The notes under the pieces were generated by a model, which saw only the letters and a program-made list of their open reading frames with translations, was not told the DNA's origin and made no database searches. The translations under genes were made by a program, and so were the position numbers. From Warburgia ugandensis (taxonomy: Eukaryota; Streptophyta; Magnoliopsida; Canellales; Canellaceae), in assembly GCA_035236585.1 (NCBI GenBank), contig CP141138.1:23199437-23263436 (forward strand): a DNA stretch of 64,000 bases. The letters run 5' to 3'. Below, in pieces: positions 9,001 to 56,050 of this stretch. Each line of letters begins with the position of its first letter. Within the stretch, counting starts at the first letter, position 1.

Positions 9001-12000
9001 ACAGGAGTTAAATAACAATGAATTAAAAAACATAAATTAAAGAAATTTAAGACAAATAAGATTTGAAATTGTAAGACTTACAAGGAACCATTGTCTTCCT
9101 TTTCAATTTAGCTAAGTCATTTAACAAATAGGCTTGTTGCACGTTTATATGGGCCTAGCTTATCAATCACCTTGCTTGCATCATCTTGATTTGCAGATAG
9201 GGTATTGATAGTGTCAAATAAGCCTCGCTTGATAAATCTATCGGCCTCAACATCTTCTTGCCTATCATAATAAAATGCAGGGTTAAGATAATAACCAGTT
9301 GCATGCAAAGGTTGACAAAGTTGATTTGTCTATCTACTATCAACAATGCCACAAATATGGGTGGCTTGTTGCTCATTATCTTTAAGATGTGCCATAATCT
9401 TTTCCTTAGCTTTTGTGATGGTCTCGTATATATATCCCATTGTAGGCTTTTCTTTAGTATCCATAAGCTTCAATACTTCCACAAGTGGTGCCATTATCTT
9501 CAAGCAAAATAGAATATTATTCTAGAAGGAGCTGTGGCTAACAATATTTTGCACTCTTTGCCCAACCAATGTATTGCTCCATTTGCTATTGCTTTATGCT
9601 TGACAGTGGAACATCTCCCTTAATTCCGCCCTGACATTGTAAATACTCTCTAAACTCAAGAAGTTTGTGGCGAAACAAGTGACTGCAGGCCTGACCAATT
9701 TTCTTTGCGTGGTCAGCGTTCTCGTTAAATGAAGGACATGAGTGTGACTGTATATAAAAACAGTCATTGCCTTTGCTTGTTTCATAACATGCTCCACTTT
9801 TGGCAATTTGCCAATGTCTTCCAACATCAAGTGAACACAATGAGCTGCATAGGATGACTAAAATAGATGCTTCCTTCTTATTTGTAAGCATCTTCCTGCA
9901 GCTACATAATTTGATGCATTGGCCGTGATGATCTGTAATAGGTAATGGAATTCGTAAATATTAAAAATTTTAAATATTAAATTTCTTAATGAAAAACTTA
10001 ACTGAGATTAAGAGGAGAGATTACCTGGAAAATGTTCCCCTCTCCAACGTCATATATGACATCATCCAACATTTTAACAATCAAATCTGAGCTCTTTACA
10101 TGCTCAGATCCATCAATTAATTTTAGAAAAACTGTTCCAGTTGGACAGTTTACCAAAAAATTGATTAAGGTGCGACCCTTGCCATCAGTCCACCAGTCTG
10201 ACATTATGGAGCACTCGTATCATGCCCAATCTTTTTGCATTCTTGTACAAATTCATTCATCTTTGCAAATTGTTTTTTGAGAAGAGGTACCCTCAACTCA
10301 TGGTAAGAGGGTGTCTTGAAACCTTAAGATAGAAAAAAAAAAGAAAAAAACACAAGTAAATGCTCTTTAACTTAAAAATATGCATAAAAAGTACTAGTAA
10401 TATAAAGGAAAACAAAAGAAAACCATTTGCCTGGACCATACTGTGCAGTCGCCTCAAACATGGTCTGAAATGATGGACATCGAGCTGCATTGAAGGCAAT
10501 GCCATTCTCATAAAACGAGCTTGTAATGTAATCATATGCTCTGGTTCTAAGCTCCTTCGTATATCATTATTAATTGTTGTTTGATGTAAAGGAGCCTTCT
10601 CAGGATTAGGGGCAAAGTGAATATCAAGAGGTCTTTTTATTCCACTTCTAGACCTCTTGTTGCTCTCTATACTAAATCCATTAGAGCCTGGGCCATTACT
10701 ACCACCAGCCTGTCTAACAGCTTCAAGATCATCAAGAATCCCAAACAAATTTTTTGGTCATGTTTGCTCCACAATAATTCTCTCCCCCTCGTCTTTCTTC
10801 TTTTTTGACTTATTCATATAATCACTTATTCTTTTTGATATATTAGGGGTCACCTTGCTGCATTTTTTAGCATTCCTATGCCCTCCAGCTAAATGTTGTT
10901 TTAGCCTATAAATTCCACAACTGTATTTGTTTTCATACAATTTACACCAAACTGTGTTCTTATCACATGGAATTCTTAACTCTCTATACTCCAACCTTGG
11001 GTTTGCATATTTAGAAATAGTTGAAGTATCTGGAGTTGAACCCCTTGATGATAACATCTTTAAATTTTAGGCTTAAAATGTAGAAAGCATAAAAGAGTAC
11101 TATTATTTCCGTAAAAATTGAAAAAAAAAATTCCAAAATAGGAAAACAGCATGAAAAAAAATCACATATGAAAACACAAGCATGGGAAAGCTATATATGT
11201 GGATAGACATATGTTTTAACTAATAAATATAAAAAAAATAAATTTTTTCCAATTTCTGTAACTGGTATTTAAAAAAGAAAAAGAATAAATAATTTTAAAA
11301 TACAAAAACAGCATGAAAAATACATCACACATGAAGACACAAGCATGGGAAAGCTATATATGTAAATAGGAATACGTTTTAACTATTAAACATAAAAAAA
11401 CAATTTTTTTTCCAATTTCTGTAACTGTTATTTTTGGAAATTTTGAAAAAAATAACACTAAAATACAATAAAAGCATGAAAAATACATCACACATGAAGA
11501 CACAAGCATGGGAAAACTATATATGTGGATAGGAATAGGTTTTAACTAATAAATATAAAAAAAAAACATTTTTTTTTCTTTCCAATTTTTGTAATTGTTA
11601 TTTTTGGAAAAATTAAAAAAAACCCTAAAATGCAAAAAAATGATGAAAAACATTATCACACATGAAGACACAAGCATGGGAAAGCTATACATGTGGATAG
11701 GAATAGGTTTTAACTAATAAATAAAAAATAATAATTTTTTTTCCAATTTTTGTAACTATTATTTTCAGAAAAATAAAAAAAACCCTTAAAATACAAAAAA
11801 CAGATGAAAAAATTATCACACATAAAGACACAAGCATGGGAAAGCTATATATGTGGATAGAAATACATTTCAATGAAGAAATACGAAAAAATGAAAACTT
11901 TTTTATATTTCCGTAACTGATTTTTTTGAAAAAACTGTAAAAAACCTAAAAACAAACTCAAATCTAGAGCAAAGAAGTATAAAACTCAAATGGAATGTTT

Positions 12001-36453: not shown

Positions 36454-36640
36454 GAAATGCCAGAAAGAGCAATGCATAAAGGGCCCTCTTTTTAGCATTA
36501 GTTGAATGTAGTTTACGATAGTTGTTATCCTTTTTTTGGAATTGAATTTCATGTGGGTGTCTTTATCAATGATATATACCTTGGGTAGTGAATTTTCAAC
36601 CCAAATCTTGCTTCTTCTTTTTTCTTTTGTATTGCATCTT
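35572..36640. other. Intergenic DNA with short dispersed motifs
   Basis: Between 35880 and 36300 the phrase CACCCA or GCACCCA recurs after ATCTC/ATCGAT-like words at irregular spacing, which suggests a decayed minisatellite. No gene is seen. Confidence 0.35.
36372..36450. repeat. (TC)n microsatellite, 79 bp
   Basis: An uninterrupted TC run, the reverse-complement type of the (GA)n run 1.2 kb upstream. Confidence 0.97.
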
Positions 36641-36734
36641 TAATAGTTCTCCCTGGTATAGTGAAAAGTGTGAATGAGTTCATGCCATAGAGGTAGAGAA
36701 GTGCATAGGTAAATAGGATATCTCAAGAGCATAA

Positions 36735-37573
36735 GATTCATATTGCCACATGGAATATAAGGACAGTGACAGGTAAGAGTTTAAAGTTAGTAGATACGAT
36801 GAAACGTAAGAGAGTCAACATCGCTTGTATCAAAGAAATCAAGTAGAAAGGGGCTAAAACTAGAGAAATTGATGGGTATAAACTCTAGTATGTAGGAAAG
36901 GATAATAACAAAAATGACGTAGGAATAATAGTGGATAAAGAATTAAAGGATAAAGTTGTGGACGTTAAAAGAATTAGTGATAGAATTATAACAATAAAAC
37001 TTATTCTATGAAAATAGGTAATAAATGTTATAAGTACATACGCACAACAAGTAGGGTTAGAAGATATAATCAAGAGACAGTTTTGGAAAGATATGGTGGG
37101 AGTCATGCAAGAAATTCCTAACATTGAGGAAATATTTATAGGAGTAGACTTAAATGACTATGTGAGAAAAGAAAAGGAAGGATATAATAGGATACATGGA
37201 GGGTATAATATAGGAGAACAAAATGAGATGGGGGAAACTATCCTTGATTTTGCTTTGTCATATAACTTGGCCATTACAAATACATTCTTTTAAGAAGAGG
37301 GATGAACACTTAATAACCTTTAAAAGTGGACTTCATAAGAGCCAAATAAACTTTTTTCTACTTAGGAATACTGAAAGATCAATGTGTAAGGATTGTAAGG
37401 TGATACCCAGTGAGAGTTTAACCTCACAATATAAGTTAATGGTTATGGATATCTATATTAAAAGATGGAAGAAAAGAATTGACCTTAATAGGTATCCAAA
37501 AACTAAGTGGCAGAACTTAAAAGGAGATAAAATAACCTCCTTCTCAAATAAGTTGATGGTAGAAGGAAACTAG
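36735..37573 (+). pseudogene. RTE endonuclease domain (broken)
   Basis: EEP-type endonuclease remnants are HIATWNIRT, a glutamate-containing CIKEI with a stop soon after, GVDLNDYV (37144-37167; normally a GDxN catalytic motif) and LDFALSYNLAITNTFF (about 37240-37293). A frameshift near 37290 moves the frame. This domain nicks target DNA in active elements. Confidence 0.68.
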
Positions 37574-37597
37574 AACTATGAAACAGAAGTAAACACC

Positions 37598-38960
37598 ATG
37601 TGGATTAATATGACCGATTCCATTAAAAAAGTGGCAAAAGATGTTTTAGGAGTATCTAAAGGCAAAAGGCAATTAGTAAAGGAAACATGGTGGTGGAGTG
37701 AAATAGTGCAAAAAGTTATTAAAGAAAAACGGGAATGTTTCAAAACATGGCAAAAGATTAGAAATAATGAAAAGTATAAGAATGCTAAAAAGGTTACTAA
37801 GAGAATAAAAAGTCAGCCTAAACTTAAGGCATATGATGACCTCTATAATAGACTAGGAACAAGAGAAGGTGAGAAAGATGTGTTTAAACTTGCAAAAATA
37901 AGAGAATATAAGGGTAAGGACCTAGATCATGTTAGGTGCATTAGAAGTGATGATCAAAGGGTACTGGTCAAAGATGACGATATCAAACAAATGTGGAAAA
38001 CTTACTTTCAAAAATTGTTAAATGACAATGGCTCTGAGAATATAGGGATTGAAAATACTATAAACTTAAATAACATTGGACATTATAGATATGAACATAG
38101 GATTATAATACCTGAAGTGAAAGATGCCTTAAAAAAGATGAAATTAGGAAAGGCCATGAGGCCCGATAGTATACCAATAGAGGTTTGGAAGCATATGGAA
38201 AATATTAGGGCATTTTGGTTGACTAAGTTGCTTAACAAGATTATAAAATCAAAGAAAATGCCGGATGAATGTAGGAAAAGCTCTATTATACCAATTTATA
38301 AGAATAAAGGAGACATACAAAGCTGTACTAATTATCAAGACATCAAACTTATGAGCCACATGATGAAACTCTTTGAAAGATTGATTGAGAAGAGGTTATG
38401 GCATGAGACAAAGTATATCAGAGAATTAGTTTGGTTTTATGCTTGGGAGGCCTCCCATGGAAGCTATTTTCTTATAAGTCAATTGATAGAGAAATATAGG
38501 GAGAGGAGGAAAGTTCTCCACATGGTCTTTATCAACTTAGAGAAAGCTTATGATAGAGTCCCTAGAGAGTTAATATGGAGGGAGGGTGTTGGGCGAGAAA
38601 GGGGATTTGCGAGGGTATATATACATAATTAAAGATATGTATGAGGGAGCGGTAACAAATGTTAATACCACTAGTGGCAAGACTAGTGATTTTTTTGTCA
38701 CTGTAGGATTGCATCAAGGATCGGCATTGAACCCATGCCTTTTGACGTTGGTTATGGATGAGTTAACAAAACATCTATATGAAAAAATTCCCTGGTACAT
38801 GCTATTAGCAGACGATATAGTCTTACTTGATGAGATAAGGGATGACATAAACATAAATATAGAGTTATGGAGAGAAGCATTAGAATTTAAAGTATTTAAA
38901 ATTAGTGTAACTAAGATAGAATATATGAAATACAATTTTAGCAAGGAGAGTAGGAGCATC
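37598..38960 (+). pseudogene. RTE reverse-transcriptase domain (broken)
   Basis: A 344-codon frame (37598-38632) carries [15 protein letters not shown] (motif 0/1-like), [19 protein letters not shown] and [15 protein letters not shown] (motif A, where the usual first aspartate is asparagine). A shifted frame at 38586-38962 carries LHQGSALNPCLLTLVMDEL (motif B) and MLLADDIVLLDE (catalytic DD). The frame is lost near 38600. The domain is cut by the organellar insert right after KIEYMKYNFSKES. Confidence 0.83.
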
Positions 38961-39189
38961 TGAGAATTCTTAATTGGCTAGTTGTAAATAGCCCCCGGGC
39001 TGTGGAACAAAGGATTATCCCAGATCTACACCGAGGTATTGACTGTGATTCTCAAATATCACAGAACATAATGTGATACGATGAGATAGAATGCAATAGA
39101 AAGAAAGACAAGGAACGGGTTACCTACTCCTAACGATCAAAGCGAGCCCTTTAATTAAGAATTAAAGAATTAATCAAATCTCCCCAAGT
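38957..39189 (-). repeat. Left arm of a 233-bp inverted repeat (plastid trnN flank)
   Basis: This is the near-perfect reverse complement of 41792-42024. It starts at CATCTGAGAATTC and ends at CCCCAAGT, which is the last few bases of trnN. Confidence 0.9.
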
Positions 39190-39534
39190 TCTATGAAATT
39201 ACATCGATACTTCCACATATTACGGGTAACATAGGAGACATCTCTATTTTTCACCGGGGATCTTTAGAATTACCACTGCTTAGCTTTCAATTCACCTTTG
39301 ACCATCAAATGAAATGCGAATAACCCGTCCTCCTCTCTTTGAAACAAGGGGCGCTTCTGGTTCTGTCCATGCTTCAAACAATTTTGTCTTCTCCATATTA
39401 CCATATCTCTAGAGTCAATAATTTTATATGAGGAACGACTGAACTTAATCACTTGCTGCCGTTACTCTTCAGTTTTCTGTTGAGGTCTATCCCGTAGAGG
39501 TACTCAAATCAGTGATCAATTTCTAGGTTTCGTT
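39190..39534. other. Organellar sequence, gene not assigned
   Basis: It lies between two clear plastid segments and has plastid-like composition. I cannot name its source locus. Confidence 0.45.
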
Positions 39535-39881
39535 GAAGTTAGTTCTATACATATGACCAGTGACGAGAAAAAGAAATGCAATAGCTAAATGATGATGAGC
39601 AATATCAGTCAACCATAAACTTTGTGTTTATGGATGGAATCCCTCGAGAAGGGTTAGAATGGCAGTTCCCGCTCCTTGGGAAGTACCAAATAAATGACTA
39701 CTAGAATCGGGGTTTTGGGCATAAAGATTCCACTGACCTGTAAAAAGTGGGCCCAACCCTTGGGGATACGGTAATACATCTAAGAAATTATTCCATCTGA
39801 CGTACTGCCCCCTGATCCGGGAATAGCAACATGAACTAAATGTCCTGTCCAAGCCAAGGAACTTACTCCGAAGGTACCCAT
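39535..39881 (-). pseudogene. psaB: psaB internal fragment (photosystem I P700 apoprotein A2)
   Basis: The minus strand encodes [20 protein letters not shown], then [54 protein letters not shown] and [19 protein letters not shown]. This is a well-known stretch from the N-terminal third of psaB, including membrane-helix histidines. It is about 115 codons of a gene of roughly 734 codons, with no start or end. GG to EG in LLEGFHP is a G-to-A change. Confidence 0.85.
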
Positions 39882-40069
39882 CTTATTCTTCGATTTCTAC
39901 TGGATTAAACCAATGAATTGGAAGGAGTCAACTGACCCTATTTTCAGCTACACTTCGACTATGGTTCTATTTAGACTATTATACTTCTATAGGAATTTAA
40001 AAATTTCTTTTCAGTTTCAGATTTCTCAACAATAATTCCTCTCATAAGCTACTCCATACATCTATTCCA

Positions 40070-40252
40070 AATTCATGAATCGTTCATGGATGCTTAAGAG
40101 GGAGGGATCATCGTACATCGTGAATAACCAAATTCCAATTGAAATGAAATCTTTAGGAGGAATCAATGAAACAGGAATCAATGAAACGACATCAATTCAA
40201 ATCCTGGATCTTCGAATTGAAAGAGATATTGAGAGAGATCAAGAATTCTCAC
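40070..40252 (+). pseudogene. ycf2: ycf2 5' end fragment
   Basis: The ATG at 40181 opens [20 protein letters not shown] followed by KNSH, the start of plastid ycf2, then breaks off into other sequence. The region just upstream (GAAATCTTTAGGAGGAATCA) is the ycf2 leader. A 12-base AATCAATGAAAC duplication lies just before the start. Confidence 0.75.
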
Positions 40253-40990
40253 TAAATAAAGATCCTTGGTCTCATCCTCTATATTGAGATATATCATGAG
40301 ACCAACAAGTTGATTCGAGATCTCATTATCAACCTCTTGTCCTAAAAAAAAGTAATCTTTTTCGATGAAGTCAGTTGATTAGGACAAAATTGTATCCCTT
40401 AGGAACCGCACACGCACCTTTAGATGCATATGGTTCAAAAAAAAAAATCAAAATTGTGAGAAAAAAAAGAATCAATGTGTCGATTCCAGCCCTCTTTCGT
40501 TTTTTGTAGCACGCTTTTTCTTAAGGAAGGGACTCTTTTTTTTTCCAAGAAAGAGGTGTTTTAACGTGCTTCCTATAAAAAAGAATTCATTGAACTTATA
40601 GAACTAACCTCTCATTGATGTATTGTTTCATCGAGATACAAATCGCGATGTAATTTTCTTGTTCCTGAATGGGCCTCTTCAATTCTTTTAGGTTTATGCT
40701 CTACTCTGGGTAAAGATCTGCTCGAATTCTATAGATTGATTCCCTTGTAATACACTTTTGATCAAAATAGTTTTATAAATTCCAACGAATTTCACTTTTT
40801 TATTTTTATTTGAAACTTTTTTGAATTTGAACCTTTTGATTTCTATATCGAAGATATGCTTACGAAGTTGGAACAACTTATTGATTGGTACTAACCCTAG
40901 ATCCGCCCCCTTGATTGATAAATGAATCAATACTTTATACTCGAGCTCCATCATGTACTATTTACTTACAACCTTCCCCCTAAAAGGTTG
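40253..40990. other. Plastid-like sequence, gene not assigned
   Basis: It has A/T-rich spacer character with homopolymer runs. An 86-codon minus-strand frame (40694-40954) contains EYKVLIHLSIKGADLGLVPI, which I cannot place with confidence. Confidence 0.4.
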
Positions 40991-41590
40991 GGGTTCTAGT
41001 AGAACAGAACAAACTATGTCGAGCCAAGAGCTCAGTATTAAACGTATTCCTATTACTATTATCCTTAACCCTACCATGGAATCTTCTCGTTAGCCCTCCA
41101 TTATACTGGAGGAAAGAGTGCTTTTTGCTTGCCTAAGGGAGGAGACAGCTTTCAAAGGGACTGGATGGTATTAGCTTAGGACTTCAACTGGAACTTAAAC
41201 CCCAGATAAAGGAAAAGAACTGGTAGGGAGAAAGACTACAACTAGATGACTGGTAAAAGGCACTAAGGATTCTCTTATGATTCTAACTCACGCGAAGGCA
41301 GAAAGCCTGGAAAAATGTCTGGAGGGAAACAATAAATACGCTACTGAAAAGATCCTTGGAAAAGGAAAATCTCGAACTCAAACTGCAAGAAAGGAAAAGA
41401 TTTTAAAATCATCACAAACCTCCCCATTTTCTTTTCTATTGCAATTTCTCGATTATTATATGATGATTTCTTAACTTTCCATAGATAGAAAGAGAAAGAC
41501 TAGAAATGACATCTCTTATGTCAATGATACCAAAGGGATCTTAAATGAATGGAATTAGGATATGGACGGAATATAATGAAATAGAGCCGC
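40991..41590. other. Possible mitochondrial-type segment within the insert
   Basis: The style (balanced base use, motifs such as GCTTGCCTAAGGGAGGAGAC) is unlike plastid DNA on either side and resembles plant mitochondrial intergenic DNA. No mitochondrial gene is visible, so this is inference. Confidence 0.3.
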
Positions 41591-41730
41591 TTTGAGGTTC
41601 CCTATGAAATGAGGCATGGAATGAAGCCACTATGAAGAAGTTCAAGGAGTTACGAAGGAAGCTTCGGGCTCATATTGGTCATGGGTTGAGAACGGGAGTT
41701 GAACTCTAGGAGATCTAATCTCCCGTTGTT

Positions 41731-41802
41731 CCTCAGTAGCTCAGTGGTAAAGCGGTCAGCTGTTAACTGATTGGTCATAGGTTCAAATCCTACTTGGGGA
41801 GA
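41731..41802 (+). tRNA. trnN-GUU: Plastid-derived trnN-GUU copy, decayed
   Basis: The 72-nt cloverleaf starts TCCTCAGTAGCTCAGTGG, with anticodon GTT and a T-loop GGTTCAAATCC. Compared with the conserved plastid gene I count five differences, all G-to-A or C-to-T, four of them at CpG sites. Its neighbour trnR lies about 590 bp away in opposite orientation, as in the plastid inverted repeat. It is unlikely to be used as a nuclear tRNA gene. Confidence 0.85.
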
Positions 41803-42024
41803 TTTGATTAATTCTTTAATTCTTAATTAAAGGGCTCGCTTTGACCGTTAGGAGTAGGTAACCTGTTCCCTGTCTTTCTTTCTATTGCATTCTATCTCAT
41901 CGTATCACATTTTGTTTTGCGATATTTGAGAATCATTGTCAATACCTCGATGTAGATCCGGGATAATCCTTTGTTTCACAGCCCGGGGGCTATTTACAAC
42001 TAGCCAATTAAGAATTCTCAGATG
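41792..42024 (+). repeat. Right arm of the 233-bp inverted repeat
   Basis: It overlaps the last bases of trnN and continues into the trnN-trnR spacer. It is the reverse complement of 38957-39189. Confidence 0.9.
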
Positions 42025-42390
42025 ATGTACTAGCAGTGCATTAAAGATGCAGTCATCGATTCTACCGAGAGGACACAATACCGCGAGCAAACATATTAAT
42101 GACGAGGAACATATTTTTGCTTTGCTATGCTACTAATACTTGTATTTGCTCTGCTATTTTGCCCAAGCCTGGCTGAGGAAGAGTTACGGGGAGTAAAACA
42201 CAAATATGTTGATTCGAACTGGGCATATTCTATTGAATTATAGAATCATTCACAATAAATAAAAAGTAAGGCCATTCCATTTCGACAAAAGACCCACACC
42301 CAAGTTCCATAGCTTTGCGTCCGCTATCCTGATCATGATTTTCCTACCCCCATAGGTAAAGGAAAGGTCCTTCCCTTTTGGGCCGGTTGT

Positions 42391-42464
42391 GGGCGAGGAG
42401 GGATTCGAACCCCCGACACCGTGGTTCGTAGCCACGTGCTCTAATCCTCTGAGCTACAGGCCCC
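42391..42464 (-). tRNA. trnR-ACG: Plastid-derived trnR-ACG copy
   Basis: On the minus strand the 74-nt sequence starts GGGCCTGTAGCTCAGAGG after one G, has anticodon ACG within CTACGAACC, and a T arm GGGGGTTCGAATCCC. It looks intact, unlike the neighbouring trnN. Its order and orientation relative to trnN match the plastid inverted repeat. Confidence 0.88.
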
Positions 42465-42509
42465 ACGCCGTCTCCACTGGATTTGTTCCTGGGAGTACTC
42501 TAAAAAAGG

Positions 42510-44790
42510 AACCTCAAATATCTAAATTTCACCCTTTTAGATACTTTTTCAGACCCATTACTAAGTAGCAGTAAAAAATTTGCATCCATTTTTCATGATA
42601 TTATGCATGGATCAGATATATCATGGCCAATTCCTCAGAAAATGTTGTGGGTGATTCTTCCACAATGGAATATGATAAGTGAGATTTCGAGTAAGTGTTT
42701 ACAGAATCTTCTTCTGTCCAAAGAAATGATTCATCGAAATAATGAGTCACCCGTTCCATTGATATGGACACATCTGAGATCACCAAATGCTCGGGAGTTC
42801 TTCTATTCAATCCTTTTCCTTCTTCTTGTTGCTGGATATCTCGTTCGTACACATCTTCTCTTTGTTTCCCGAGCCTCTAGTGAGTTATAGATAGAGTTAG
42901 AAAAGATCAAATCTTTGATGATTCCATCATACATGATTGAGTTGCGAAAACTTTTGGATAGGTATCCTACATCTGAATTGAATTCTTTCTGGTTAAAGAA
43001 TCTCTTTCTAGTTGCTCTGGAACAATTAGGAGATTCTCTGGAAGAAAGACGGGGTTTTGCTTTTGGCAGCAACATGCTATTGGGTGGTGGTCCCGCTTAT
43101 GGGGTCAAATCAATACGTTCTAAGAGGAATGATTTGAATATCAATCTCATCGATATCATCGATCTCATAAGTATCATACCAAATCCCATCAATCGAATCA
43201 CTTTTTCGAGAAATACGAGACATCTAAGTCGTATAAGTAAAGAGATCTATTCATTGATAGAGAAAGAAAAAACGTGAACGGTGATTGGATTGATGAGAAA
43301 ATAGAATCCTGGGTCGCGAACAGTGATTCGATTGATGATGAAGAAAGAGAATTCTTGGTTCAGTTCTCCACCTTAACAACAAAAAAAAGGATTGATCAAA
43401 TTCTATTGAGTCTGACTCATAGTGATCATTTATCAAAGAATGACTCTGCTTATCAAATGATTGAACAACTGGGATCAATTTACTTACGATACTTAGTTGA
43501 CATTCATAAAAAGTCTCTAATGAATTATGAGTTCAATAGATTCTATTTATGAGAAAGACAGATCTTCCTTCTCATTATCAGACAATCACTTATTCACAAA
43601 CCTCGTGTGGGGCTAATAGTTCTCCTTACCCATCTCACGGAAAACCCTTTTTGCTCCGCTTAGACTTATCCCCTTCTAGGGGTATTTTAGTGATAGGTTC
43701 TATAGGAACTGGACGATCATATTTGGTCAAATCCCTAGCGACAAACTCATATGTTCCTTTCATTACGGTATTTTCGAACAAGTTCCTAGATAACAAGCCT
43801 AAGGGTTATCTTATTGATGATATCGATCTTGATGATAGTGATGATATCGATCTTGATAATAGTGACGATATCGATCTTGATGATAGTGACGATATCGATC
43901 TTGATGATAGTGATGATATTGATGACCTTGATATGGAGCTGCTAACTATGACGAATGTGCTAACTATGTATATGACGCCGAAAATAGACCAATTTGATAT
44001 CACCCCTCAATTAGAATTAGCAAAAGCAATGTCACCTTGCATAATATGGATCCCAAACATTCATGATCTGTATGTAAATGACTTGAATTACTTATCCCTC
44101 GGTCTATTAGTGAACTATCTCTCCAGATATTGGGAAAGATGTTCCACTAGAAAGATTCTTGTTATTGCTTCGACTCATATTCCCCAAAAAGTGGATCTCG
44201 CTCTAATAGCTCCGAATAAATTAAATACATGCATTAAGATACGAAAGCTTCTTATTCTACAACAACGAAAGCACTTGTTCCATACTAACAGATTCAAGTC
44301 CATAACCATGGGTTCTAATGCACGAGATCTTGTAGCACTTACCAATGAGGCCTTATCAGTTAGTATTACACAGAATAAATCAATTCTAGACACTAATACA
44401 ATTAGATCAGCTCTTCGTAGACAAACTTGGGATTTGCGATTCCAGGTAAGATCGGTTCAGGATCATGGGATCCTTTTCTATCAGATAGGAAGGGCCGTTG
44501 CACAAAATGTACTTCTAAGTAATTGCCCCATAGATCCTATATCTATCTATATGAAGAAGAAATCATGTAAGGAAGGGGATTCTTATTTGTACAAATGGTA
44601 CTTCGAACTTGGAACGAGCATGAAGAAATTAATGATACTTCTTTATCTTTTGAGTTGTTCTACCGGATTGGTCACTCAAGATCTTTGGTCTCCATTCAGA
44701 CCCGATGAAAAAAATTGGATCACTTCTTATGGATTCGTTGAGAACAATTCTGATCTAGTTCATGACCTATTAGAAGTAGAAAGAGTATAC
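42510..44790 (+). pseudogene. ycf2: ycf2 internal fragment (AAA-like domain)
   Basis: Successive frames encode known ycf2 stretches: LDTFSD then [52 protein letters not shown], a P-loop-like [20 protein letters not shown] (about 43690-43755), [20 protein letters not shown] (Walker B-like region) and [20 protein letters not shown]. The native gene encodes a very large essential plastid protein; this is roughly its central third. There is a stop at about 42887 and frameshifts near 43277 and 43552. It ends at LLEVE and joins unrelated plastid spacer. Confidence 0.9.
43819..43914 (+). repeat. Four 24-bp tandem repeats in ycf2 (DIDLDDSD)
   Basis: GATATCGATCTTGATGATAG plus four bases is repeated four times, with one GAT-to-AAT change, encoding acidic octapeptides. 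Length variation at this position is common among plastid ycf2 genes. Confidence 0.9.
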
Positions 44791-44912
44791 AATAATGATG
44801 TATTTGGTGAATCAAATACCATGCTAATAACGAACCATTCTAATTAGTTGATAATTGATAATATTAGTTGATAATTTTGTGAAAGATTCCTGTAAAAGGT
44901 TTCATTCACGCC
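44791..44912 (+). other. Plastid spacer, probably atpB-rbcL type
   Basis: It lies between the ycf2 and rbcL fragments, with TTAGTTGATAATATTAGTTG and GTGAAAGATTCCTGT motifs reminiscent of the atpB-rbcL spacer. It is joined to the middle, not the start, of rbcL. Confidence 0.35.
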
Positions 44913-45664
44913 TAATGCGTTGGAGAGACCGTTTCTTATTTTGTACCGAGGCTCTTTATAAAGCGCAAGCCGAAACAGGTGAAATTAAAGGCCATTACTT
45001 GAATGCTACTGCAGGTACATGTGAAGAAATGATCAAAAGGGCTGTAGTTGTCAGAGAATTGGGAGTTCCTATTGTAATGCATGACTACTTAACAGGGGGA
45101 TTCACTGCAAATATTACCTTGGCTCATTATTGCCAAGACAATGACCTACTTCTTCACATCCATCGTGTAATGCATGCAGTTATTGATAGACAGAAGAATC
45201 ATGGTATGCACTTTCGTGTACTAGCTAAAGCATTACGTATGTCTGGTGGAGATCATATTCATGCCGATACCGTAGTAGGTAAACTAGAAGGAGAAAGGGA
45301 AATCACTTTGGGTTTTGTTGATTTATTATGTGATGATTTTATTGAAAAAGACCGAAGTCGCGGTATTTATTTCAAACTAAAAGGAAAATTCTATAGGATG
45401 GCCATAAGGCCAGCCATGCTTTATGGATCAGATTGTTGGGCCACTAAGGAACACCATGTTCATAGGATGAGCATCACTGAAATGAGGATGTTGAGATCAA
45501 TGAGTGGCAGGACAAGAAAGGATAGAATTAGGAATGAAAATATTAGAGAAAACTTAGGGGTAGCACTAATAGGTAACAAAATGTGGGTGATTAGACTTAG
45601 ATGGTTTGGACATGTCCAAAGGAGACAAAAAATGGCACCGGTTAGAAGAATTGAGGAAATGTAA
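44855..45664 (+). CDS. Chimeric open frame: rbcL fragment fused to RTE C-terminal region
   Basis: One uninterrupted 269-codon frame joins 20 spacer-derived codons, about 153 rbcL codons and about 96 codons of the RTE C-terminal region. The junction is [13 protein letters not shown] at about 45371-45375. It survives because insertion left the frames in register and no later stop arose. No promoter is evident. Whether it is transcribed is unknown, and a functional protein is unlikely. I list it because it is a real, long, open fusion frame. Confidence 0.55.
44915..45374 (+). pseudogene. rbcL: rbcL internal fragment (Rubisco large subunit)
   Basis: It encodes [80 protein letters not shown] and [13 protein letters not shown], about 153 codons from the catalytic barrel (roughly residues 212-364). 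Several residues differ by transitions from the conserved protein, such as VVVREL for VFAREL, ADT for AGT and LLCDDF for LLRDDF. The conserved GGDHIH metal-site region is intact but the gene lacks both ends. It runs in frame into RTE sequence. Confidence 0.92.
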
Positions 45665-45837
45665 GTAGAAGGTTCTAAAAGGGCAAGGGGAATGCCTAAA
45701 AGAACATGGATAGAAATGGTAAGAAAAGATTTAAAAACTTTGGGACTAAATGAAGCCATGGTACTTAATAGAGAGGGATGGAGGAGTAAGATTCATGTGG
45801 CAAATCCCTAATTGGGATAAGGTCTTGATGATGATGA
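45374..45837 (+). pseudogene. RTE C-terminal region and 3' tail
   Basis: [20 protein letters not shown] and [20 protein letters not shown] and [11 protein letters not shown] are the standard C-terminal block of plant RTE polyproteins. A stop interrupts after RRIEEM, but coding resemblance continues (RGMPKRTWIEMV, REGWRSKIHVANP) to the GATGATGATG tail. Confidence 0.85.
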
Positions 45838-45877
45838 CATCTTCAATAGTTCCATAAACCCAGATGCTACTACTTGG

Positions 45878-48800
45878 TGATGACCCGAGTTTTCACATGC
45901 ATTTTTAAATGTAAAATTAATTCCTAATGCGGGATCGATCCCTATTTGAAAACAATTTTAGAAAATCAATGCAATGCATCGAAAAAAATATTTTATTTTA
46001 AATTCATTTTAAAAACCTTGAGTGTCATTTGCTTTCAAGACGAACAAAGTAATTTTGAAAAAAAAAGAAGACAATCATATATAAACCCCAAGTCTATCTA
46101 GTCATAGCTCACAGCCCAACTGTAATAATTACAGATACATGTCCAAAAGGTAGATCATATACTTACATTTATACTTGTCTCCTTTTCATTCACTTGATCG
46201 TAGCATTAACATTTTCTGATGCTTCTTCTAATCTTGTGTGGAGCTAATCTGTAAAAATAATATATTTGGATGAGTATTCCTCATACTCAGTAGGTGATCT
46301 GATACCACTATTTTGAAAACACGGCATGCAACATACATGGTTTCAAAAGAGGCTTTCCATGAGAAACATCATGAAATTTCTCTTTGTGTATACATTTTTA
46401 TGCATAAATCATAAGCTTGTTTGCACATTTTCAATCAGGGAAGCTTTTAGCGAAATCCAAAAATCAACGATATAACTATGGACTGCTTTATTGAAATCCT
46501 ATATGCAATAATATAAATAGGACTAAAATCATAAAGTAGTAATTGATCAGCCCATGTAGTAAGATCTCATCAAAAGCATCAAGCCAATAAGTCACATATA
46601 ATAATCATGAAACTATTAAAATAGTAATAATTCAAAGCAGATGATAGCATCCCTATAGATATCATGCACATGGTCTTTCGATTTTGTTCCCATCGTAGGC
46701 TGCTTCATTGGTGATCTACCCACTTGGAACTCAAGCCGATGGGTCTGTAAACACATCAAACCGATTGGTCATGAGTACTTATCTACGATCATCTCAATGC
46801 TATGTGCATATCGATAAAATTGAAATCATAGGGCCAACTATGCTCATGACCAGCACACAGTTGGAATCGTGTGTCTCCGGTATCTAGAGACCACCCACCA
46901 TAGCCCTCCATGGCGACTATGGATATGTCCCTGAAAGGGTACCGTGAACACCTCCAGTGGTCGTCCTTGTTTACCACATCAGTCGAGGAAGGGACAATGC
47001 CATTTTGGTAGCGATACCATCTACTTTTTGTGGTAAAGGTCGGGAGGCCAACCCCATACATAACAACCTCTCAGCATAGTGCCCACCAGGCTCAATAGCC
47101 CAAAAGCATATATAATTAATCCAAATCTCAATCATCGTAAATCATGCAATCTATGCAATGCGTTTCAAAACATGCGAGCAATGCATATAATATGCATTTA
47201 CCAAATCTCAATCATCACAAGTCCTGCAATTTATGCAACCAGTTCCAAAACATGTATGCAATGCTTATATAAAGCCTATTTACCAAATAGGCAATTTGCA
47301 TGCAAGATCATAAGGAAAATCTGCATACTCATTATGAGAATATCAAATCTCAAGAAGCATGCTAAACACGGTTATAGGATCAAATAAATCAATTAGAGTT
47401 TAGAAATTCATTTAAAAAGGCAGCAGTATCAGACTACCTACCTCGATGTCTTTTGAATTGCCTTCTTCATTACTCGTCCCTGATTTACTTGTTGAATATC
47501 AATTGATAACAAGGATTCAAGTATCATTTTCCACCCTTTATAGATTAACGGCTAGATCTTCCTTTGAGGATCATAGATCCTTGCTTAATACGTTTCTAGG
47601 CTAGATCTTGCGTATAGATCTAATGTTTAATGGTTAGATCTCATAGATTGCCTATCCTGATGCTTAGAACATTCTGTACTTGATTCGAACGGTCAGATCT
47701 ATATGATTTAGGTGTGATCTAGGTATATTGATCTTCTAATATACCTAATGGATCAATTTATGAGAATTAATCATCTTTGATCTTGTAGATCTATGATATT
47801 TTCATGGCTTCTAGGCTATAGTCATATAAAATAGTCCATTGATCCTAACTTTTATAGTATCATTAGGTTCGCGTCGTTAATATGAATGCAACAATTCTTT
47901 TGGATTGTTGATCATAGTTATATAGCCTCCTTAATTGTGTTTTTAGTGTCATGAATCAATGTACAAACTAGATTCATCCATACTAGGCCTGCGTGTCACG
48001 GTTCCCTAGACGTGTGCGCATCCCAGTCGAACCAAGATTGCGTTTGCATGCATGCACACACCTGAACGATGCACCAGGGTGTGCATCCTAGACGGCATTG
48101 CTCGGGGGCGTCTTTGGCTCGGGCGCACGCGTGTCACGACTTTTGGGGCGCTCATACTTCCTGGTCGAACTGGGACCATGCCCATACACCGCATGTGCCT
48201 GAAGTCTATCGCAGGGGCCGTATTTCGGGCGTGTGTTATGCACTGCATCCCTAGGATGCCCTGGTTCGAGGGTTCTAGAATGAACCCATCTTCTCTAGTA
48301 TTTTTCGACCAGAAAATGCCAGATCCGGCATGGATATGGGTTAGAAGAGCGGGAAAACCAAGGGGAGAGAGAGAGGGAGAAAGAAGGGCCTTACCTGGGC
48401 AGCCAGAGATGGTGCCCTTTTTCTTGTGATGCAGTTCCCTTTATGCTTGTCAGAACCGTAGCTTGAAGTAGTCGGAGGAGAAGGAGAAGGGATGATCGGA
48501 AAAAGAGGAGGAGAGGGTATAGAGGGTGAAGGCGGTGCCGCCATTTTTGTGGCGCCGTACTACACAAAGGTGGTGCAGTGCGTCGGCTGGAGGTAGGGGA
48601 CGACCAGGGGTGTCGTTATCAAAATGACCCCTTTTGTTTTTAATCCTTTTTGTTTTTAAGTTCAAATTACACAAATGCCTCTTATCTTCAAAAGTCCATT
48701 TCTTGGTCATACGAACTCCGTTTTCAGTGTTCTTTGAGGCTTTGGATTCCACTTCGAGCATAGAATCTAATTATGTGGATATTTCTCTCAATTTACTTTA

Positions 48801-48975
48801 TTTCATAGGTTAATTAAAATAAAATATCCAACAGCCTATTAATATGATTAAATATCTATTAATCTCCAAAATTTTCTAAAATAAACAAGCTATACCTAAT
48901 TAGCACATGGAAACAATATGATTGATTGTGGTTATAAAAGTGATATACTAATATTGAAAAATTTGAGTCATTACA
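45878..48975 (-). repeat. Left LTR (3' LTR of the element)
   Basis: It matches the right LTR over nearly its whole length. It carries about 220 extra GC-rich bases near 48000-48225 and about 50 extra bases near 47306-47355. Confidence 0.85.
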
Positions 48976-51900
48976 TCATTACCCCCTTCCATGAATTTCA
49001 TCCTCAAAATTCCACAGATTATTATCTTCAAGTTATTTGTCTTTTAGACAACCTCTTGATGAATGCAATCTCCCTTAGGACTCTGACTAAGAAAATTTCT
49101 TTGCTTTCCAATATATCTCTCATCTAGTATCTTAATTGGGTCAGTAAGTAAAGAAAATTTGTCCTTGAAATTCTCTTCATGTTACCTTGCAACCAAATCT
49201 AGGCACATCCTCAATTTTATCATCCTCATAACTCCTTCCTCATAATGCCTTCCATAAAGGCCTTAAATATAACTACAGTGCAGCTTGCTTTACGTACTCA
49301 AGAGCTGCTTCCGCTGCATACTCTGATACTGCGTTCTTTACTTGCACCCTTATCAATATTGGTTTCTCATTGTAGTTCATCTCGTTACTATAGAGTTTAT
49401 TTAATTAATATTGACAAATCCTTAGATGACCATACTCCTCTAATCATGTAGAAATTACTCTCCACTACTTTGATACTGTATCATCTTATTTCTTGTCTTT
49501 CATTCTGAATAGTAGAGGATAGCCTCCTTTGCCTCTTGTCTTCCATCAAATGACCTATTATTAGAGTCTCCGCCTTAAGTGTTGACTGTACCTTGCTAGT
49601 AAGAGCCCCAAAAGTTTACATTCTTTCTATCAAGTCTCACTTGGCTCATATGTTCATTAAGAAACTTCCATGTGACTTGGCTCATATGTTCTTCAAGAAA
49701 CTTCAATGATTGATACAATATCACTTCTCATCTCTTAATATCAATGCTAATAGTTTTCTTCATACCAACTCCTTTAGTTGGAAAGGTGTTTTAATACTAG
49801 TCTCCAAACTTCAAGTTCCAACTGTCTTTTATTTTTCATTTGTGACTTGATTCCTCAACCAATGTTTATATTCATAATAGAACCATGAAAACAAATCAAG
49901 TAGCATCTTCCCTCAAGGATACTAGTACTTACTGCAAATAAGATCTCCTAACTACTATTGAATTCTATCACAAAGATATTCCTCCTCGAAGAATTGATTC
50001 AAAATCATGTCAACTGTTTATGGTGAATCTATCTTCATAGATTGAATGTTCTTATCTCATCATTTACCTAGAATTGTCATTAGAATTTCCAGCCAAATTT
50101 ATACTTATGTCAAAAGTCTCTTATCTCTAATATAGTCCACTTACTATGTTCATGGTTTCCTTGCTTGACGATTTTCTTTGCTACCTCCTAGACCAAATGT
50201 CCTATACTCAATCCAGTAAAGTTAACCCTTATAACATTTACTTCTATTCGGTTTCTTCAGTTGGTCTTTGTACTTGATACGTACATATAACAAATACCCT
50301 TTTTGTTTAAAGGCAATTAAACATCAGATGTTACTGTATAGCACGTCAACTTTCTTAATTTTTCCTCCTTCCATTCCTTATGTTGATACATTGTTCAAGC
50401 ATTTGTCATTAACTATTAAGTCTTAATTTGTCATGAGGGACCATCATAAGTAGTGGTTCTCTAAATTCCTCAAATTTTATCTTTCAAGTACCACCTCATA
50501 CCTATTGTATAACAACAATAATAATCATCCAATAATCATCATCTAAATATTCGCTGAAGCTTTCCAAGCAACAATTTTTAAGAAACACACAAGTAAGCGT
50601 AGAGCATCTTCTTAGACATAGACAAAAATTTTGTTCGACTACTTGTATATCCTTTCCCAGATTTGTAGGCTTTAAGCTCAAAGGTCTCTAAAGCGACGAG
50701 TGCTTAACCACCTTTCTTTTTAATCCAATCAACAGCATATTGTCTAGACCCAAAGTGATCTCCATAGCTTGTCATAGCATCTAGTATGGTCCAGGAATAT
50801 CAGCAATTTTAGTCATTGTTTTGGGTCATTTCTCATTTCACCTTTGTCTCAGTTGTTACTGAATCTATTGAGCTCTTAGGTCCTCCAATGACTTGGTCAA
50901 ATCAATTGACTTCCTTTAGGGAAAAACTCATGTCTACGTACCCATACTATTCCTCATAACTTAGGCTACTATCTACTAGATGCTATCATGGTTAAATAGA
51001 TATGATTTGAATACCTTAGTTCAATCAACATTAGTTCAATCAGCATCATTCTAAAGATAACGACACTTAATTCTATTTGCTCTTCCAACTTGTCTTTATA
51101 CTATCAAGTCCTCAAGTTGATCCTTGATGATACTCTGGTTGATGAAGATCGATTGGACAAGTCACTATCCTTGCTCTTTACTTCTCACTATAACTTCACT
51201 CCATCAGATAATGACAATGTAGGGTCTTATCAACTTTTCCTTTTCATAGATTACAGCCACTAGTGTTTCCTCATAAACTAGTGGATCTAATAAAATTCTA
51301 ATATCACCAATGGATATAAGCATTCAACTACATGTAAAATTAAATTCCTAGTTGGTCACTATTCCCAATTTCGATACTCTGCTCAAAGACTGTATTTTCT
51401 GCTATTTTATCTTCATCATACTCTTTCACCATAATATCACCAACCCGACTATTATTCCCTCAATTTGGAATGATTTATCTTTCGATTTGGCAATGTGACT
51501 CAAGATGAGAGATTTTTTATTCTATACTTCTCCTTCCTTTCCTCCATAAATCATGATCTTCTTATTCTGACTATTCAATGTCTCTATTTGATTTGTTGCA
51601 TATAATCCCTACTACATCTACACTTTTGTTCAACAGAGATGATGAACTGAATACTTTTAGGAAATGTTAAAATTTTCTAATATCATCTAAATCCTTCATC
51701 GTCTGTATTCTCAATAAAATCATATAGTGTCTTAACAAGTTTATGAACAAGATTAATCAATCGATTATCATAGATCTATCATCCCCATCAGATTATCATC
51801 AAAATATTTTAATAACTCGGTTATACTTCAAATTCCTTGTCATTCTCCTCAACTTCCGTCTTTTACTCATGTTGTATTTCTCTTGATCATATATCCATTA

Positions 51901-52378
51901 TTGGACTCATATTCTGATCTTCTCTATTCTTCTTGGAAGATAACCATTTATTTTTCATAAAGTTCCAATTAAGTCATCTAAGTTCTTTAGAATTCTCACC
52001 TTTGATTGATCAAAGTTGTCTCTTAAGGATTCCACTAGTATCATTTTGTATTCTCATTCATCATTCTCATCATAGTCTTATTCTCATATACTAGTTTCCT
52101 TGTTTGCACCACTACACAACAATCCTTATCCCCTAAGTATGTTAGCCTAACTTTTTGCTAGAATTTGAGCCATCCAATACCTAAGTACCTGCTAGATCTA
52201 TCACCTTTTCACCTATTTATTTATGGTGTATTTCTTTGTGATCTAATATTATTTCTTATTCTAGTCATCTCTACTACTTATATTTAGACTACTTTTTCTT
52301 AATTATTCCCATCATATATGACTATTGGACATGCAAGATTGGCTGTGAAAGGATAAAACCGGGCTCTGATACCAACTG
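48976..52378 (-). other. Non-coding interior of the LARD-like element
   Basis: This is strongly C/T-biased on the plus strand with frequent stops in all frames. I see no gag, protease, RT or integrase remnant. It begins with the polypurine tract and ends with the primer site when read on the minus strand. Confidence 0.65.
52363..52374 (-). promoter_or_regulatory. Primer-binding site, iMet-tRNA
   Basis: TGGTATCAGAGC on the minus strand, four bases inside the LTR end. Confidence 0.88.
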
Positions 52379-55182
52379 TGATGACCTGGGTTTTCATATG
52401 CATTTTTAAATGCAAAACTAATTCTTAATGCGGGATTGATCCCTATTTGAAAACAATTTTAGAAAATCAATGTAATGCACCGAAAAAAATCTTTTATTTT
52501 AAATTCATTTTGAAAACCCTGAGTGTCATTTTCTTTCAAGACAAACAAAGTAATTTTGAAAAAAATAAGACAATCGTATATAAACCCCAGGTCTATCCAA
52601 ATCTGACTCACAAATTTCAACTGTAATAATTACAGATACATGTCCAAAAGGTAGATCATATACTTACATTTATACTTGTCTCCTCTTAATTCACTTGATT
52701 GTAGAACTAACATTTTCTAATGCTTCTTCTAATCCTGTGTGGAGCTAATTTGTAAAAATAATATATTTAGATGAGTATTCCTCATACTCGGTAGGTGACT
52801 TGATACCATTATTTTGAAAACACGGCATGCAACATACATGGTTTCAAAAGAGGCTTTCCATGAGAAACATCATGAAATTTCTCTTTGTGTATGCATTTTT
52901 ATGCATAAATCATAAGCTTGTTTGTACATTTTCAATTAGGGAAGCTTTTAGGGAAATCTAGAAATCAACGATATAACTATGGACTGCTTTACTGAAATCC
53001 TGTATGCAATAATATAAATATGACTAAAATCATAAAGTAGTAATTGATCAGCCCATGTAAGAAGATATCAGCAAATGCATCAAGCCAATGAGTCACATAT
53101 AATAATCATGAAACTATTAAAATAGTAATCATTCAAAGCAGATGATAACATCCCTATAGATATCATGCACATGGTCTTTTAGTTTTGTTCCCACCGCAAG
53201 CTGCCTCATTTGACGATCTGCCCACTTGGACCTCAAGCCGATGGGTCAGTAAACACATCAAACTGACTGGTCACGAGTACTCATCTACGACCATCTCAAT
53301 GCTATATGCATATCGATAAAACTTAAATCATAGGGCCAACTATGCTCACAATTAGCACACAACTGGAATTGTGTGTCTCTGGTATCTAGAGACCACCCAC
53401 CATAGCCCTCCACGGTGACTATGGATATGTCCCTAAAAGGGTGTCGTGAACACCTCCAGTGGTCGTCCCTATTTACCATAGCAGTTGAGGAAGGGAAAAT
53501 GCCATTTTGGCAGCAATACCATCCACTTTTTGTGGTAGAGGCTAGGAGGCCAACCCCGTACATAATAACCTCTCAGCATTGTGCCCACCAGGCTCAATAG
53601 CCCAAAAGCATATATAATTAATGCACATCTCAATTATCATAAATCATGCAATCTATGCAATGCATTTCAAAGCATGCGAGCAATGCATATAATATGCATT
53701 TATTCCAAATCTCAATCATCACAAGTCGTGCAATTTATGCAACCAGTTCCAAAACATGTATGCAGTGCTTACATAAATCCTATTTAGCAAATAAGCAATT
53801 TGCATGCAAAAAGCATGCTAAACAAGGTCATCATGATCAAATAAATCAATTAAAGTTTAGAAATGCATTTAAAAACGTAGCAGCATCAGACTACCTACCT
53901 CGATGTCTCTTGAATTGTGTTCTTCATTACTCGTCCTTGAGTTACCTCTTGAATATCAATTGATAACAAGGATTCAAGTATCATTTTTCACCCTTTATAG
54001 ATTAACTGCTAGATCTACCTTTTAGGATTATAGATCCTTGCTTAATTCGTTTCCAAGCTAGATCTTACGCATAGATCTAATGTTTAATGGTTAGATCTCA
54101 TAGATTGCCTGTCTTGATGCTTAGAACAGGTTTGTACTTGATTCGAACAGTCAAATCTATATGATTTAAGTGTGATTTAGGTATATTGATATTTTAATAT
54201 ACCTAATGGATCAATTTATGAGAATTGATCATCTTTGATCTTGTAGATCTATGAGATTTTCATGGCTTCTAGGCTATAGTCATGTAAAATAGTCCATTGA
54301 TCCTAACTTTTATAGCATCATTAGGTCCACGTTGTTAATACAAATGCAACAATTCTTTTGGATTGTCGATCGGAGTTATATAGCCTCCTGAATTGCGTTT
54401 TTAGTGTCACGAATCAACGGACGAACCAAATTTGTCCATACTGGGGGCGCGCATTATGCGTTGTGTCCTTGGGACACCCTGGTTCGAGGGTTCTGGAACA
54501 AGCCCGTCTTCTCCTGCATTTTTCAGCTAGAAAATGCTAGATCCTACATGGATCTGGGTCAGAAGAGGGGGAATCCTAAGGGGAGAGAGAGGGAGAGAGA
54601 AGGGCCTTACTTGGGCAGCCAGAGATGGTGCCATTTTTCCTATGGTGCGGTTCCCTCTACGCCTGCCGGAACTCTAGCTTGAAGCAGCTGAAGGAGAAGG
54701 AGAAGGGATGATTGGAGAAAGAGGGGGAGAGGGTGAAGGCAATGCTATCATTTTTGTGGCACCGCACTTCACAAAGGCGGTGCAGTGCGTCTGCTGGAGG
54801 TAGGAGACGACCAGGGGTGTCATTATCAAAATGGCCCCTGCGTTTTTAACCCTTTTTGTTTTTAAGTTCAAATTACACAAATGCCCCTTATCTTCGAAAG
54901 CACATATCTTGGTCATACGAAGTGCGTTTTCAATGTTCTTTGAGGCATTGGATTCCATTTCGAGTGCAAAATCTAATTATCTAGATATTTCTCTCAATTG
55001 CATTTGTTTCATAGGTTAATTAAAATAAAACATCCAACCACCTATCAATATGATTAAATATCTATTAATCTCCAAAATTTTCCAAAATAAATAAGCTATA
55101 CCTAATTAGCACATGGAAACCATCATGATTGATTGTGGTTATAAAAGTGATATACTAATATTGAAAATTTTGAGTCATTACA
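52379..55182 (-). repeat. Right LTR (5' LTR of the element)
   Basis: It is the shorter copy, lacking the GC-rich block present in the left LTR. Its ends agree with those of the left copy. Confidence 0.85.
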
Positions 55183-56050
55183 TACCTCATGTTCCACATT
55201 AGTCATTTAATAACAAACCTAGCTGTTTGACTAAATGCCAAAGTCAGGACATTGGGTAAAGTGTCTCATGCTAAAAATTCAAGTTAAGATATTTGGGTTG
55301 GTTTAGACTTTGTCTTGATGGGATCTCCACCTCCTTTTCCTATTTGTTCTTTCAAAATAGGATAAAGTAAAAAAGAAAAGTAACCCATCTAGGCTTTGTA
55401 CAAAAGTCATTAGTTTCTTTCAGAAATGCCTTTTTGGAGTGATTTCTTTTGTCCCCATTCTTCAACACATCACCTTTATTATAGATGGAAAAATTAGATT
55501 TGCATAGTGTTGAAATTTGGAGTCTGGTAGCTATTGCAAAGTGGGATTTCTGGCGCTCATGTCACCCATACTATTATAAACTGAACATGAAGTATGTAAC
55601 AATACATGTGTTCAGCATCCGACAATCTCATCCAGAAACCTGATGAAGATAAGCAAATTATAAATGGCCTTTTTTAAATTTGGAACATGATGTCTTAATT
55701 TCTTGACTTACATGTGTGATTGTAAGCAAGGGGTTATGACAAACAGACATGCCTTGATCAATTGCAAAATTTGCACCACACTTTGATATGCCTCCACTAA
55801 AATTTGGATACTTAAATTCACAGTAGTATGCGCATCTTAATTTTGCACATTGCAACCTGAAAATTTAATGTATATCAAGAAATACATGCACATTATCTAA
55901 TGATTATTTGCATGATAACAACATTTTTGGACTTGAAATTTCACCACTTGTATTAAAGCTTGATGTGCATGAAATCTACTGGATTTGACATGTATTTTGA
56001 TTTATTTTAACCATTGAGCATCCTCTATATAGTGCTCTTTAAACTAGTAG
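55183..56050. other. Intergenic DNA, nothing recognised
   Basis: AT-rich DNA between two retrotransposons, with no open frame of interest. Confidence 0.4.

Follow-up and report, generated by a model that had tools for sequence, protein, structure and literature searches.

A mosaic of mostly plastid-like DNA fragments interrupts a single RTE retrotransposon copy in Warburgia ugandensis

We analysed a 64,000-bp stretch of Warburgia ugandensis DNA (the window; positions 23199437-23263436 of the contig that we call C13) in which a retrotransposon, assigned here to the RTE clade, is interrupted by 6.4 kb of mostly plastid-like DNA. The insert (window positions 38957-45374) is a mosaic of twelve pieces, lettered A to K from left to right with G divided into G1 and G2, which lie in both orientations and create 13 junctions. 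Its limits, recovered here from the points at which RTE and organellar donors end, agree nearly to the base with those proposed from an earlier inspection of the sequence (the original prediction). Searches covered 1.12 Gb of the genome in 14 contigs and, for DNA queries, at most the best 40 candidates were scored (all 29 in the case of piece D), so the absences reported below hold within that scope. Other nuclear copies stood in for the plastome as donor references, chiefly those in C6:79530001-79730000, and the breakpoints of the pieces were set from alignment end points that many nuclear copies share. Note that the wider region C6:79433144-79777778 (about 345 kb) is a large cluster of nuclear plastid DNA (NUPT) with many plastid pieces, including two trnN and two ycf2 blocks; the copies in this cluster are labelled L009-L028, L034, L044 and L057.

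The RTE sequences on the two sides of the insert are the parts of one element, present from end to end with its own target-site duplication, because both ends are present and a duplication with 14 of 15 bases identical lies directly outside them (36635-36649 and 45838-45852, both on the forward strand). The 5' part, which encodes a reverse transcriptase in broken frames, occupies 36650-38956 (+) and the 3' part 45375-45837 (+). The original prediction that RTE sequence flanks the insert on both sides is therefore borne out, and by a single element. Both ends recur elsewhere in the genome. At the 5' end, 41 of 41 other rows start at window positions 36648-36662, 13 of them at 36651 (best 40 of 5,816 candidates), and at the 3' end all 39 other rows stop within 45834-45846, 28 of them exactly at 45837 (best 40 of 4,651 candidates). 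When random pairs of window stretches of the same size were compared, a 14-of-15 match was reached in 1 of 60 pairs, with the match free to lie anywhere in the stretches, whereas here it abuts both ends of the element. Pfam recognized the reverse transcriptase domain RVT_1 in the frame 38574-38960 (E = 1e-8) and, below the cut-off, in the frame 37574-38629 (E = 6.2e-4); it found no match in the RTE frames 37018-37290 and 45371-45661 (the 3' frame). The element thus has a reverse transcriptase domain, recurrent ends and a target-site duplication, and its C-terminal motifs suggest that its clade is RTE. A search of a viral collection for RTE relatives found none.

Since the element is abundant, the site can be compared with uninterrupted copies, a comparison that the original prediction had called for. 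We queried the genome with the two RTE flanks joined (best 40 of 11,482 candidates scored; pairs entered by hand). The left flank was also matched at 34 of the 38 other scored places that match the right flank. In these 34 copies the flanks are separated by 98-187 bp (mode 179; 179-182 bp in 23 of 34), and in none is the separation zero; in four aligned copies the stretch missing from the window can be seen directly. Because other copies carry 98-187 bp where the insert sits, about 180 bp of RTE is missing at the site, apparently replaced by the insert, and the open reading frame does not pick up where it was broken off. The expectation that RTE sequence would resume at about the right place was thus not upheld.

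Ten of the twelve pieces could be placed on the plastome. Piece A (38957-39189, minus relative to the trnN strand) comprises the 3' end of trnN and the trnN-trnR spacer, and it repeats, in inverted orientation, part of piece H (41394-42514, plus relative to the trnN strand), a plastid trnN-trnR block in which ARAGORN identified tRNA-Asn at 41729-41802 (+) and tRNA-Arg at 42389-42463 (-). Piece B (39190-39533, plus relative to ycf2) is DNA from the rpl2 side, presumably of the rpl2 intron; in two copies on C6 it precedes piece E by about 0.97 kb. Piece C (39534-39873, -) is part of psaB, as indicated by Pfam (PF00223, E = 1.1e-12) and by a PDB match to PsaB residues 202-263; genome copies of this piece stop at the same points. 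Piece D (39876-40085, minus relative to trnS-GGA) is plastid DNA from beside trnS-GGA, with a 96% match to a single nuclear copy (L058) that has a tRNA-Ser(GGA) 0.2 kb away.

Piece E (40085-40254, +) was identified from copies on C6 and from L030 and L031. On C6 it lies 3.6 kb before, and on the same strand as, the ycf2 piece, and the L030 and L031 copies carry a tRNA with anticodon CAT, which we take to be trnI-CAU; we therefore describe the piece as trnI-side spacer with the 5' end of ycf2, the gene name being an assumption that draws on the C6 position. Pfam found no match in the frame 40048-40284 that overlaps it. The piece contains a 15-bp tandem duplication (40158-40187), and two C6 copies of it align only with gaps (83.5% identity), while six copies elsewhere are 97-99% identical. 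Piece F (40254-40732, -) combines a partial clpP exon with the non-coding DNA next to it, presumably clpP intron. Its C6 copy sits in clpP, adjoining psbB (Pfam), and in the window the frame 40181-40378 (-) has a CLP_protease match that falls just short of the cut-off (E = 0.0012).

The right part of the insert ends in three further plastid pieces. Piece I (42515-44781, +) is a 2.27-kb portion of the second half of ycf2, supported by two Pfam matches (PF05695, E = 2.5e-63 and 2.3e-66) and a PDB match to Ycf2 (E = 3.3e-197); it ends near residue 2010 of 2294, and eight copies were compared. Piece K (44915-45374, +) is the middle of rbcL (PF00016, E = 1.2e-58; PDB rubisco residues ~199-364). Piece J (44779-44916, +) is placed upstream of rbcL because its copies lie on the same strand as the copies of K, 695 bp ahead on C12 and 687 bp ahead on C6, and by inference it is the atpB-rbcL spacer. 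The ycf2-rbcL part of the insert had no match in plasmid or phage collections, and the Ycf2 frame had none in a viral collection.

Several of these identities had been proposed in the original prediction. Its trnN/trnR, psaB, middle ycf2 and middle rbcL pieces were confirmed by ARAGORN, Pfam and PDB matches, and its ycf2 5' end and atpB-rbcL-like spacer agree with the positions of the nuclear copies, although both names retain the element of assumption described above. The pieces it named are real, but its inventory was incomplete: it lacked the rpl2-side, trnS-GGA-side and clpP pieces, the two pieces without a map position and the inverted trnN copy. Its claim that the plastid pieces stand in non-plastid order and orientation held when judged on the nuclear stand-in copies. 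Note, however, that B, E and I, and likewise J and K, retain the relative order and strand that they have on C6. The locus thus brings together, at a single nuclear position, several fragments whose plastid loci are far apart, as complex NUPTs do.

Two pieces have no map position. Piece G1 (40734-41031; strand arbitrary, set to +) is plastid-like, with matches of 96-97% on C6, C13 and C3; a copy of H lies 15 kb from the match on C13, and a copy of B 9 kb from that on C3. Seven frames beside the C6 copy gave no Pfam match over the cut-off and one below it (E = 0.0077). Piece G2 (41029-41392; strand arbitrary, set to +), which carries no organelle assignment, has a 93% match at C5:85666188 and more copies on C1 and C2. 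Possibly G2 is mitochondrial. The genome has 56 COX1 matches, and when their positions were compared by eye with those of the G2 copies on C5, C1 and C2, none was closer than a megabase. The 7.4 kb around the C5 copy contained no tRNA and no Rfam family up to E = 0.1, and 10 submitted frames, out of those listed there, contained no Pfam family up to the same value. (Three partial G2 copies and one B copy lie within 23 kb at C2:32001495-32024163, another mixed cluster, and a COX1 match at C5:48728495-48729838 covers the whole Pfam model in a 522-aa frame with no stop, being either a recent nuclear mitochondrial DNA insert (NUMT) or a mitochondrial segment included in the assembly.)

The duplication within the insert was also considered as a later event. 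Piece A is the inverted counterpart of 41792-42024 in H, 95.3% identical over 233 bases. The two share one base against the majority of six other copies, at 39002 only, and two of the six share that base too; position 39033 is a 3-3 tie among the six. A late duplication of H into A, after insertion, is thus unsupported by shared bases, whereas an early duplication is possible.

We read the junctions by extending the donors base by base; many rest on one or two donors. At the left limit four RTE copies match through 38955 (one copy) or 38956 (three copies) and six organellar copies match from 38957. At the right limit a single rbcL copy was compared, and its match extends to 45374; RTE copies match from 45372 (three of four) or 45374 (one of four). 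Three of the 13 junctions are blunt (RTE/A, A/B and H/I), six share 1-3 bp (1 bp at D/E and E/F, 2 bp at J/K, and 3 bp at G1/G2, I/J and K/RTE) and four contain 1-2 unmatched bases (one at B/C, F/G1 and G2/H, and two at C/D). At B/C one of the five left donors extends further. These junctions are what end joining leaves behind. The overlaps seem little above chance, and microhomology need not have been required. Moreover, among the best-scored candidates no other match in the genome continues more than 7 bases beyond an internal junction. Queries that spanned the junction were used for A/B, B/C, D/E, E/F, F/G1, G1/G2, H/I, I/J and J/K (for most, best 40 of 61 to 1,356 candidates), and uniqueness was read from the D side only for C/D and from the H side only for G2/H.

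To compare decay along the insert we counted changes private to it, relative to 2-8 other nuclear copies per segment, in 11 segments (D was left out). There were 149 private changes in 5913 columns (2.5%), of which 102 (68%) were C>T or G>A; the insert has thus decayed in nuclear fashion. By segment, the private changes per column were A 6/229, B 8/331, C 3/324, E 0/155, F 10/477, G1 7/295, G2 9/289, H 34/1091, I 55/2149, J 0/113 and K 17/460. Homogeneity was not rejected for all 11 segments (P = 0.12) or for the nine with more than 200 columns (P = 0.47). In a simulation that gave the 11 segments independent ages, drawn from the rates of 12 other copies (1.2%-8.8%), equal evenness arose with P = 0.019. 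Note that these rates came from copies of about 1000 or more columns that were top-scoring and so non-random, two of them from the same C6 cluster. (This simulation replaced an earlier one with 28 rates and nine segments, which had given P = 0.0075.)

We think, with a probability of roughly 0.85, that the insert is a complex NUPT, perhaps a mixed plastid-mitochondrial insert (numin), that arose when loose organellar fragments were captured while a broken RTE copy was being repaired by end joining, some 180 bp being lost. The original prediction had already suggested break repair, which seems probable and would account for the junction anatomy and the missing target sequence. The sequence of events began with insertion of a full RTE copy, which made the target-site duplication of about 15 bp around it. 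A double-strand break may then have occurred inside the reverse transcriptase open reading frame, where the ~180 bp that the other copies retain at this site was lost. Loose organellar fragments would have been linked to one another with hardly any homology or none, either beforehand or in the course of repair, and the gap would have been closed through a pathway that the junctions suggest was end joining. Thereafter the insert decayed as neutral and, given its overall excess of C>T and G>A changes, probably methylated nuclear DNA. No function is evident for it. The captured material appears to have been DNA rather than processed RNA, because the two tRNA genes in the continuous stretch H are encoded on opposite strands.

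How many events were involved is less certain. A single event is favoured, though not proven, for the whole mosaic: the segments do not differ significantly in decay, and none of the junctions turned up elsewhere among the candidates scored. This sustains in part the original prediction of one capture of pre-ligated fragments, although ligation at the time of repair would fit equally well. The fullest version, in which twelve fragments of both organelles (eleven plastid-like and one mitochondrial) formed one concatemer that was captured once at a break in one retrotransposon, we hold tentatively, at somewhat less than an even chance. Several points weigh against the explanation that we prefer. 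In a post hoc comparison the left segments A-F (27/1516, 1.8%) carried fewer private changes than the right segments G1-K (122/4397, 2.8%; Fisher P = 0.036), a split that would fit a history in two steps. Few or no private changes were found in C, E and J, and the share of C>T or G>A is not high everywhere (3/6 in A, 4/9 in G2). Several segments had only 2-3 comparison copies, D lay outside the test, and decay was measured against other nuclear copies, which stood in for the organellar genomes of the species. Lastly, the deletion in the RTE could be older or younger than the organellar insertion.

The slightly younger look of the left pieces would also be expected if the mosaic had been built over time, by independent organellar insertions or by later internal rearrangement, and a later deletion could produce the arrangement of J and K, which stand in plastid order with ~690 bp skipped. 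We nevertheless consider such stepwise growth unlikely. Segment decay fits one age and independent ages fit it worse, and neighbouring pieces are separated by no more than 2 unmatched bases and never by host DNA. In addition, Portugez et al. (PMC6215612) encountered no case of recurrent insertion when they compared rice. It is less probable still that the mosaic is a single mitochondrial stretch, already bearing plastid pieces, that moved whole into the nucleus as a NUMT. Plant mitochondria do carry plastid pieces, and G2 could be mitochondrial, but eleven of the twelve pieces are plastid-like, ten of them with a place on the plastome, and the junctions occur in no other scored nuclear copy despite ample mitochondrial DNA in the genome, as the number of COX1 matches attests.

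Copies of non-LTR retrotransposons (those without long terminal repeats, LTRs) are often truncated and the RTE is very abundant here, as its 11,482 first-look candidates indicate, so that an organellar insertion might by chance have come to lie between two separate RTE copies. We give this little credence: both ends of an element are present, a matching duplication of a quality rarely reached by random stretches lies outside them, and on the element the flanks are only ~180 bp apart. Equally hard to credit is an assembly chimera made from organellar reads. Private changes, 3 to 55 per segment and jointly rich in C>T and G>A, occur in all nine segments of more than 200 columns; such decay is unlike live organelle DNA, and the RTE is otherwise complete end to end. 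The position of the insert in the reverse transcriptase open reading frame might suggest that RTE machinery captured organellar RNA through template switching. That is the least probable explanation of all, given the opposite-strand genes within H, the presence of spacer DNA and the loss of an internal part of the RTE; moreover, no poly-A tract or second duplication was seen at the insert ends by eye, no dedicated search having been made. Capture of loose fragments by end joining at a break in the RTE thus remains the reading that we prefer.

Two other repeats were observed in the window. Direct repeats at 45877-48976 and 52378-55183 (89% and 86% identical), which start 24 bp past the RTE duplication, resemble LTRs belonging to an old retrotransposon of the LTR class, and an AT-rich, tandem-like array with copies 78-82% alike occupies 11099-11956.

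Transfer of plastid DNA in tobacco has reportedly given both simple and complex loci (work of Huang, Ayliffe and Timmis in 2004, and of Lloyd and Timmis); those loci were newly transferred, whereas the present insert has decayed and hence is not new. Portugez et al. (2018; PMC6215612) counted 1,782 numins in nine plants, described complex nupts and numins whose junctions, blunt or with microhomology, they credited to end joining, and illustrated (Fig. 2) a 3,573-bp numin of four fragments. The present insert resembles the nupts described there in that fragments of various organellar regions, some in opposite orientation, abut with blunt junctions or short microhomology. It differs in having twelve pieces and in that its terminal junctions, which in that account were omitted for want of near relatives, can be read through RTE copies with an empty site; furthermore, their numins are of mixed origin, whereas the mitochondrial share of the present insert is unproven. 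A 2020 review (PMC7037861) treats rearranged NUPTs as a major pattern (b) and notes co-location with transposable elements. The present insert is like that pattern, with no specific difference found, and lies inside a single mapped element. Among the publications listed for NUPTs with retrotransposon, insertion or RTE, represented mostly by titles and the beginnings of abstracts, no title concerned an insert in an RTE element.

The insert therefore belongs to a kind that is well known in plants, and what it adds is a high-copy target from which the empty site and the terminal junctions can both be read. It preserves, in well-resolved form, the trace of organellar DNA that was captured where a chromosome break had probably been repaired. 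As the target is present in many copies, the sequence before insertion is known, and the terminal junctions and the loss of target DNA can be measured without a sister species. If the mosaic was indeed captured as one concatemer, abundant repeats could offer a general means to read the terminal junctions of old organellar insertions.

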